Made by a program: the position numbers and the translations under genes. From Archaeoglobus sp. JdFR-27 (GTDB lineage: Archaea > Halobacteriota > Archaeoglobi > Archaeoglobales > Archaeoglobaceae), in the NCBI GenBank assembly GCA_002011235.1, contig MTMO01000013.1:1-45044 (forward strand): a stretch of DNA of 45,044 nucleotides, written 5' to 3'. Below are positions 3,859 to 5,561 of this stretch, piece after piece; the first letter of the stretch is position 1; every line of letters starts with the position of its first letter. The notes beneath the pieces are model-generated. The model did not search any database, had not been told where the DNA came from, and worked only from the letters and a program-made list of their open reading frames with translations.

Positions 3859-4401
3859 TTACCAGTTTTTCAAAAGTTTTTTAAGATCTTCTCCTGAAAT
3901 TTCTGATTTTTCTTCCTCTTCCTCCATCTCATCAACCTCTTCAATGACCATTCTCGGCTGATAGCCTAGCTTGTCACCATACAGCTCGAATACATATTTA
4001 GCGGCTAATTTTGCGATTTCATGGACGTTTAGTCTTACGTTTTCCATTCCTTCAACTTCAACCCCCTTTCTCACAAGCTTTCTCTTGTCATGGAAGTGGA
4101 GGCAGAAAAGGCATTTGAAGGGTGAGAGTGGCTCGGGCTTCTTTTCCTCAAAAATATCGTCGAGCACTTCAAGAGCACAATGTGCCCCATCACTGTATTT
4201 ACAGTAGAGCTTTCTCTCATTTGCTATTTTCATAGCTGTGTTGACAAATTCATGGGTCTCTGGTGATGATTTTTTCTTTTTCTTAAGGAAATACCACTCT
4301 ATGAGGGCATGAACGAATTCGGAAGGGGAAACACCTGCCTCTTCACATTTCTTGTATAACTTCCCCTCAATATCTGGGGGAATATCAATAATTATTCTCA
4401 T
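3859..4401 (-). CDS. ribbon-helix-helix protein with Cys/His centre, next to an actin-like ATPase
   Basis: 180 residues. The first 40 or so (MRIIIDIPPDIEGKLYKKCE, then SPSEFVHALIEWYF) fit a ribbon-helix-helix DNA-binding domain: one beta strand, two helices. The middle carries Cys67, Cys75, Cys97, Cys100 and His102/His104 (CLFCLHFH), a possible metal site. The C-terminus is a strongly acidic run (residues 155-165) followed by a short helix (EDLKKLLKNW). It lies downstream of the actin-like gene at 4467 on the same strand, the gene order of plasmid parM-parR cassettes, in which ParR is an RHH protein. It has its own upstream TATA-like element flanked by two TATCATAT copies. A ParR-like role is inference; a simple autoregulator is the alternative. 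Confidence 0.75.
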   Translation of the reverse strand: MRIIIDIPPDIEGKLYKKCEEAGVSPSEFVHALIEWYFLKKKKKSSPETHEFVNTAMKIANERKLYCKYSDGAHCALEVLDDIFEEKKPEPLSPFKCLFCLHFHDKRKLVRKGVEVEGMENVRLNVHEIAKLAAKYVFELYGDKLGYQPRMVIEEVDEMEEEEEKSEISGEDLKKLLKNW

Positions 4402-4423
4402 CTACTTTAAAATGTGTTTTAAA

Positions 4424-4448
4424 TATCATATAAAGTTTATTATCATAT
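4424..4448 (-). promoter_or_regulatory. promoter region of the RHH gene with two TATCATAT copies 17 bp apart
   Basis: In the 65-bp gap between the actin-like gene and the RHH gene, the exact octamer TATCATAT occurs at 4424-4431 and again at 4441-4448. Between them, on the minus strand, lies CTTTATATG, a plausible TATA box about 28 bp upstream of the RHH start. RHH proteins commonly bind short direct repeats overlapping their own promoter, so this is a candidate operator. The spacing is directly visible; binding is inference. Confidence 0.4.
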
Positions 4449-4466
4449 CATCATGAGGTGGTGTTT

Positions 4467-5492
4467 CTACTTCCTCCCTTTCTTTTTCTCTTCAGTCTTT
4501 TTTATTTCCTTTTTCTCCACCTTCTCTTTCTCTGCTTTCTTTACATCCTCAGATTCAGGTTTCTTCTCGATTTCTCCTGAAAAAATCTTTGCAAGCACGT
4601 AATACCCCTTTGCATTTGCCTTTAAAGGATCATCAGGCATTATTATCTTTCCGACATCTTCAAACCTTTTCTGGAATTCCTCATAAACATTCGGCAGAGC
4701 TGCTCCACCACCAGTTAGAACTATCTTGTCGACGATAGAGGTAGAAAGCCCCTCCATTAGCATCTTGGCTCTGTTTGAGATTCTTTCAACCCATGACACC
4801 ATTAGTGAGTTGTAATCATCGATGATTGTTTCATGCTTCACAGAGATTCTTCTGCCACTCCTTATTCTTCCAATCTCGTAACCCTCTTTGGTGAGAAGAT
4901 TTGTCATTTCTTCTGGAGTGAGACTTATTCCGGCCTTGTTTCTGATTGTAACTTCGAAATTCTCATACAGCCTGTCGACACCCATCAACATAGTGTCTCC
5001 TTTCAGATACTCCATGTGACTAATGACAACGAGATCTGTTGTTCCGAATCCGATGTCAATGCAGACTCCAGTTTCAACTCCCATATGGGCAAGTGTTCCA
5101 ACAGGTTCAGGGAAAAGGATCACTTTAGCGTTAAGCTCAGTTTCAAGATTCTTTGTTAGTTCTTCCCTTTCCTGTCGGGATGATTTTACAGGCAATCCTG
5201 TACCAATCACTGGTTCACTAACGTTTAATGACGAAAGAGCATATTTTGCGAGCTCCAGGTATGACTTATGCATCAGTCTGCCCTCATGAAGTGGTCTCAG
5301 AACCTCTACGTTCTCAATATTCTGAACGATGTCAAGAGCTTCCTGACCAATGTATACATCTTTGTGGCTCTTCTTTAGACTCCAATCCTTCTCTTCTCCA
5401 AATACAACAACGCTCGGAAATAACAGCACTTCCTTTCCATCAGCAGTGGTTTTAGTGTAATTGGTGCCGATATCCAATCCAACTGGTTTCAT
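4467..5492 (-). CDS. actin-like ATPase (ParM / Ta0583-like)
   Basis: 341 residues with the actin/Hsp70 ATPase motifs in order: phosphate-1 GLDIGTNYTKT (5-15), phosphate-2 CIDIGFGTTDL (144-154) and adenosine motif VLTGGGAALPN (258-268). Size and spacing match the ParM-like archaeal actins such as Thermoplasma Ta0583, rather than MreB or Hsp70. The last 30 or so residues are a Lys/Glu-rich tail after the fold. Such proteins polymerise into filaments; plasmid relatives push DNA apart. A TTTATAAG box about 22 bp before the ATG (near 5515-5523) predicts a leaderless transcript. The RHH gene follows 65 bp downstream. The cellular role of chromosomal archaeal ParM-like proteins is not established; the family call is firm. 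Confidence 0.9.
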   Translation of the reverse strand: MKPVGLDIGTNYTKTTADGKEVLLFPSVVVFGEEKDWSLKKSHKDVYIGQEALDIVQNIENVEVLRPLHEGRLMHKSYLELAKYALSSLNVSEPVIGTGLPVKSSRQEREELTKNLETELNAKVILFPEPVGTLAHMGVETGVCIDIGFGTTDLVVISHMEYLKGDTMLMGVDRLYENFEVTIRNKAGISLTPEEMTNLLTKEGYEIGRIRSGRRISVKHETIIDDYNSLMVSWVERISNRAKMLMEGLSTSIVDKIVLTGGGAALPNVYEEFQKRFEDVGKIIMPDDPLKANAKGYYVLAKIFSGEIEKKPESEDVKKAEKEKVEKKEIKKTEEKKKGRK

Positions 5493-5561
5493 GCTTCAAG
5501 TAAAACTACCATCTCTTATAAATTTTTTTATTCAATCTTGTTTTTATAACTAAAACGCTTC

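Follow-up and report, generated by a model that had tools for sequence, protein, structure and literature searches.

An actin-like ATPase and its ribbon-helix-helix neighbour on Archaeoglobaceae chromosomes: a candidate ParMR-like pair

Background

How euryarchaea segregate their chromosomes is a question on which a gene pair in Archaeoglobus sp. JdFR-27 may bear. An actin-based route had been suggested by salactin, for which a role in chromosome partition has been proposed and no DNA adaptor or DNA-linking partner appears to be named (PMC10746226). The stretch of DNA analysed here (45,044 nucleotides, contig MTMO01000013.1, hereafter the window) carries a gene for an actin-like ATPase followed by one for a small protein with a ribbon-helix-helix (RHH) start, an arrangement reminiscent of plasmid type II partition loci. 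Do the two proteins work together, and if so, do they move DNA? The new element is a chromosomal ParM-type actin accompanied by an identifiable candidate adaptor; we found no description of the actin-RHH pair in the open-access literature. If the segregation reading is true, ParM-type segregation would extend from plasmids to chromosomes.

Results

Layout of the locus and the actin gene

Both genes lie on the minus strand, the actin gene first and the RHH gene straight after it across a gap of 65 bp, as the original prediction had described. The features of the locus, in window coordinates, are as follows.

3859..4401, minus: candidate RHH/four-Cys adaptor, 180 aa (ORF; family confined to Archaeoglobaceae)
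3862..3891, minus: its C-terminal helix, residues 171-180 (conserved; helix 171-178 in the model)
3892..3951, minus: its variable acidic disordered linker, residues 151-170 (pLDDT <50 at 151-167; poorly conserved)
4102..4203, minus: its centre resembling a four-Cys metal site, C67, C75, C97 and C100 (invariant in 41/41 homologues)
4270..4401, minus: its predicted RHH domain, residues 1-44 (Arc-like repressor PHROG in 34/35 members; modelled helices)
4402..4466, no strand: gap between the actin and adaptor genes, with a TATA-like element for the adaptor gene (sequence; repeat array absent)
4467..5492, minus: ParM/StbA-type actin-like ATPase, 341 aa (ORF; profile matches; actin-fold model; tree with plasmid ParMs)
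4470..4571, minus: disordered charged actin C-terminus with a Lys/Arg-rich end, residues 308-341 (pLDDT <50; charged tails in all homologues)
4692..4730, minus: adenosine motif (GGG; KIVLTGGGAAL), residues 255-267 (sequence; G261-G263 invariant)
5025..5066, minus: phosphate-2 motif VCIDIGFGTTDLVV, residues 143-156 (sequence; D146, I147, G148 and G150-D153 invariant)
5451..5483, minus: phosphate-1 motif VGLDIGTNYTK, residues 4-14 (sequence; D7, G9, T10, N11, T13 and K14 invariant)
5505..5535, minus: TATA-like promoter region of the actin gene (upstream sequences compared; repeat scans negative)

The actin scores best against a PHROG profile annotated 'partition protein' (3e-30), followed by MreB_Mbl (4e-15) and ALP_N (4.6e-12), and its predicted structure shows the whole of an actin fold (mean pLDDT 84). 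Together with the three motifs, this bears out the actin-fold ATPase originally read from the sequence. All complete Archaeoglobi actins finish in a charged tail, mostly with a basic end (KKGRKKK-like; 4470-4571 in the window). To our knowledge no such charged or basic C-terminal tail is known from ParM; binding of nucleic acid or of membrane is a possible role for it.

A parC-like centromere beside the pair, as in plasmid type II loci, was absent from all 39 loci compared: no 10-mer occurred in three or more copies (one mismatch allowed) within the 300 bp upstream, repeats being no more frequent than in shuffled sequence. Tandem Repeats Finder and a repeat scan of the window locus likewise found no array, either upstream or in 4402..4466; palindromes near the operon were few and none was common to the loci. 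When upstream regions were compared by eye, the sole common footprint was that of promoter-like TATA elements. The pair is thus not a standard ParMRC locus. Its distance to the main orc1/cdc6 gene varies between about 120 and 580 kb. Elsewhere in the window, a 21-bp imperfect tandem pair (TTTTGGTTATGACAACCATTT) occupies 962-1003, where long ORFs are absent.

What kind of actin

A tree was built with MreB, salactins, methanogen-side actins and six plasmid ParMs. In it the Archaeoglobi actins group together, beside the ParMs; the joint clade with plasmid ParM/StbA has support of 100/99, and MreB and salactin fall outside it. Because the ParM sequences were picked as best matches and are long-branched, and because Foldseek gives MreB rather than ParM as the top fold match to the actin model, the placement of the Archaeoglobaceae actin as ParM type is good but not final. 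The ParM-like character originally proposed for it gains from both this clade and the partition-protein match. Plasmid relatives of the actin were only ParM/StbA or MreB matches at 24-28% identity, and searches of phage and viral contigs returned zero matches.

Other actin identities were tried and rejected. The window actin falls short of the cut-offs for salactin (PF25229, 18.7 versus 27.1 bits; NF053533, 22.3 versus 400 bits), for the MreB subfamily (54.7 versus 293 bits; it clears the cut-off of the broad MreB_Mbl model in Pfam alone and lies outside the MreB clade), and for eukaryote-like, crenactin-type actin (Pfam Actin, 21.7 versus 27).

The partner protein

Evidence for the RHH start comes mainly from the family as a whole. 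The PHROG Arc-like repressor profile matches 34 of 35 members (best 4.5e-5; residues 2-45 in the window protein), and the model of the window protein (monomer only; pLDDT 70, pTM 0.47) places a strand region at 1-7 and helices at 9-22 and 26-43, as in RHH. Pfam RHH_1/RHH_5 match weakly in 4-5 of the 35, the window protein alone has zero Pfam matches, and PDB sequence and fold searches with it (monomer model) gave nothing significant. The RHH start named in the original prediction thus holds at the level of profile and modelled helices, whereas the single-sequence call is weak and a PDB fold match is absent. At strand positions 2, 4 and 6 the family has Arg or Lys, a variable residue, and Asp or Glu, the last in 40 of 40 sequences; in some members the domain has a net charge close to zero or below. 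Position 6 usually faces DNA in RHH proteins, and an acidic residue there is unusual for a base-reading ribbon such as that of Arc, CopG or MetJ. With such a residue invariant at a normally DNA-facing position, DNA reading by this domain is not assured.

Beyond the RHH domain the protein has further helices (47-66 and 119-141) and four cysteines spaced C67-x7-C75...C97-x2-C100, whose invariance across all 41 homologues upholds the Cys centre pointed out earlier. The acidic run and short end helix that had also been pointed out prove to differ in conservation, the run being a variable linker and the helix conserved. The protein ends in the consensus [KR][LI][LIV]xxW-COOH, or one residue shorter, and tryptophan is the final residue in 37 of 37 full-length proteins from actin-bearing genomes. 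In two genomes that lack the actin (G011, G014) the tails read VKKALDW and IEKLLDL, and their branches are among the longest in the tree of this protein; two cases being few, this change is suggestive only. Such a pairing of a conserved end with a linker that is not conserved has been described for arcadin-2, in which a Trp-bearing C-terminal helix following an unstructured linker fills the hydrophobic groove of crenactin; ParR-ParM is named as the bacterial case of the same groove (PMC5173319), and the ParR layout of RHH plus tail has been reviewed (PMC5016525).

Two observations from elsewhere may be added. The partner encoded downstream of a Persephonella plasmid ParM relative ends in NPQDWWG, a suggestive parallel only. 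At g4 loci (e.g. L091:5831-6409, minus strand) a divergent ORF upstream of the actin gene starts RHH-like and has no Pfam match.

Distribution and synteny

Each protein was searched against 99 relatives. Among 55 Archaeoglobaceae genomes, both genes occur in 38, the RHH gene only in 3 (G011, G014 and G025, the last at a contig edge), the actin gene only in 2 (G036 and G046, both incomplete assemblies) and neither in 12; the actin never occurs without the RHH protein in a near-complete genome. The pair is adjacent in 32 of the 38, on the same strand with the actin first, and 22 have a 4-bp overlap. The actin was found in 11 genera, and the 32 loci of fixed order span most Archaeoglobaceae genera; nearly every genus of the family has the pair on its chromosome. 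Where adjacent in the window's genus, the genes are separated by a longer gap (44-97 bp), and the second gene seems to have a promoter. An RHH protein mostly without an actin neighbour, which had been set beforehand as the pattern that would count against the pairing, was not found in this synteny search across relatives.

In six genomes (G001, G002 and four g6) the genes lie on different contigs and both are retained. In G001 and G002 the sequences upstream of the actin and downstream of the RHH gene both match the window's flanks, indicating that a rearrangement broke the locus between the two genes and that both survived intact. Relocation of the actin in g6 also left both genes intact.

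Profiles run over 295 and 247 genomes of the phylum found neither family outside Archaeoglobaceae, and the profile of the RHH protein against a collection of 84,980 species returned Archaeoglobales records only. A distant match in G182 was rejected, being another protein whose start is RHH-like. Close relatives of the RHH protein were absent from the plasmids and viral contigs searched.

Inheritance and genomic setting

A species tree built from DNA ligase is consistent with an ancestor of the family that already had the pair. On this tree the two genes were lost jointly in g8, in G050/G052/G053, in G024/G043 and in G038, and G011 and G014 lost the actin and kept the RHH protein; parsimony requires four changes for each gene. 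In an independent-pairs test the two never changed in opposite directions, with too few pairs and events for significance. The genera and the group g5+g6 are common to the actin, RHH-protein and ligase trees, and g4+g10 is a further point of agreement for the actin tree, so inheritance looks vertical and repeated transfer unlikely. Judged from these trees, the pair is ancestral to Archaeoglobaceae and vertically inherited. Since several lineages are without the module, it is dispensable.

The location is chromosomal, in megabase single-contig genomes with housekeeping flanks. In G035, G009 and G005, which we take to be A. fulgidus VC-16, A. veneficus and A. sulfaticallidus, and in G015 and G026, presumably Ferroglobus placidus and A. 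profundus, the pair sits on a megabase contig in each. Flanking genes are of housekeeping type (DUF1152, aconitase-like, cation efflux, aminotransferase). A weakly matching luciferase-like ORF adjoins the RHH gene in 27 loci and an aminotransferase gene in 12, the whole resembling one operon (e.g. L088:8503-10424). In g6 the RHH gene remains beside the luciferase-like ORF although the actin has moved; in the window's genus this neighbour is absent and the actin stays.

Discussion

The actin and the RHH/four-Cys protein are very probably functional partners, given their adjacency, co-loss, retention after separation, and altered tail in genomes without the actin. As to what the partnership is, the best explanation is a chromosomal, vertically inherited ParMR-like motor-adaptor pair, which we consider about evenly poised between right and wrong. 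We further suggest that the tail of the RHH protein probably contacts the actin groove, by analogy with the systems above, and that service in DNA segregation or positioning is a fairly open prospect, leaning slightly to doubt. The complete picture is more tentative: a ParM-type actin spindle on an archaeal chromosome, its filaments coupled by an RHH/metal adaptor to scattered sites, as an actin-based counterpart of SegAB. In such a mechanism the RHH domain would dimerise and bind chromosomal DNA at scattered sites, as SegB does, and not at one parC array; the four-Cys centre would bind metal, for structure or for sensing; the C-terminal helix would insert into the hydrophobic groove of the actin, in the manner of ParR with ParM and of arcadin-2 with crenactin; and growth of the filament would move or position the DNA-bound adaptor.

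Comparison with known systems places the pair between several of them. It resembles ParMRC (R1, pSK41) in having a ParM-type actin gene first and an RHH gene second, the RHH at the N-terminus and a C-terminal tail that would serve the motor, but it is chromosomal, vertically inherited and without parC iterons, and its candidate adaptor has an extra four-Cys domain and helix and no match in the plasmid collection. Because the parC array and plasmid location, two defining features, are missing, we do not count the pair as a member of ParMRC. Salactin of Haloarchaea (PF25229) is likewise a chromosomal archaeal actin, but of another actin clade, and several Archaeoglobaceae have a true salactin too. 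The crenactin partner arcadin-2 shares the unstructured linker and the Trp-containing C-terminal helix for the hydrophobic groove (PMC5173319), but depolymerises crenactin, itself in the eukaryote-like actin clade. SegAB of Sulfolobales and Euryarchaeota also pairs a motor gene with an overlapping RHH gene on archaeal chromosomes; its motor SegA is a ParA-type ATPase, whereas that of the Archaeoglobaceae pair is an actin, and its RHH protein has binding sites scattered over the chromosome (PMC12284271). Missing iterons and shared palindromes therefore set the pair apart from ParMRC, not from SegAB.

The DNA-adaptor reading must be tempered by the absence of iterons, the acidic RHH position 6, the inconstant link to orc1/cdc6, the non-significant independent-pairs test, the MreB fold match and the modest RHH model. 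Several of these observations would suit a filament regulator instead, in which RHH is only a dimeriser, the paired tails act like arcadin-2, capping, sequestering or severing the actin, and the actin serves shape or non-DNA positioning. The acidic invariant at a DNA-facing strand position beside a variable position 4, the absence of DNA sites adjacent to the operon, the arcadin-2 precedent for a helix-linker-core anatomy and the MreB-like fold match are all consistent with it, and the lack of operon sites and of an orc1/cdc6 link, with the unusual strand residues, leaves it real weight. We nevertheless think it unlikely, as 34 of 35 members score with Arc-like DNA-binding repressors, the actin sits with plasmid ParM in a DNA-segregation clade and not with MreB, and an mreC/mreD-like partner is not conserved in the flanks, as judged by comparing them with one another.

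Improbable, in our judgement, is a repressor that responds to metal or redox state and controls the operon in which it lies (actin, RHH, luciferase-like oxidoreductase, aminotransferase), with a link to the actin that is regulatory only. RHH combined with an invariant Cys set would fit such a repressor, as would the luciferase-like ORF and then the aminotransferase running in the same direction in many genomes, and the g6 RHH gene that keeps its luciferase-like neighbour with the actin gone elsewhere. It leaves unexplained the conserved end helix and its change in actin-less genomes, as well as co-loss with the actin; moreover, the window's genus keeps the actin though the luciferase-like neighbour is absent, and the upstream regions share no operator-like palindrome.

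A plasmid remnant, the other origin suggested in the original prediction, finds no support as a recent event. A recently captured plasmid or viral ParMR decaying on the chromosome would account for an actin of ParM type, but is very improbable given 11 genera, trees broadly congruent with the species, housekeeping neighbours, and no close plasmid, phage or viral relative; ancient capture, before the Archaeoglobaceae ancestor, is possible. Coincidental adjacency, for which one could cite the six genomes with the genes apart, is scarcely credible when both are kept after separation, are lost together and hold a fixed order in 32 loci.

If the motor-adaptor reading is pursued, module-less sister lineages provide a natural test in a family that includes cultured hyperthermophiles. 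One of them, g8 (G012, G022, G031, G037, G042), has no match to the ParM-type actin, and its sampled members also have no salactin match, so part of Archaeoglobaceae appears to live without both actins. In Geoglobus, Ferroglobus, g6 and g13, by contrast, a true salactin is encoded at a separate place in the genome. Downstream of the Archaeoglobi salactin orthologues come a coiled-coil-like ORF and then a ParA/MinD-type ATPase (Pfam AAA_31/ParA), a conserved trio seen at L223:5336-7713 (Ferroglobus), L224, L225 and L226; in Ferroglobus, pilus-assembly-like genes lie upstream of it.
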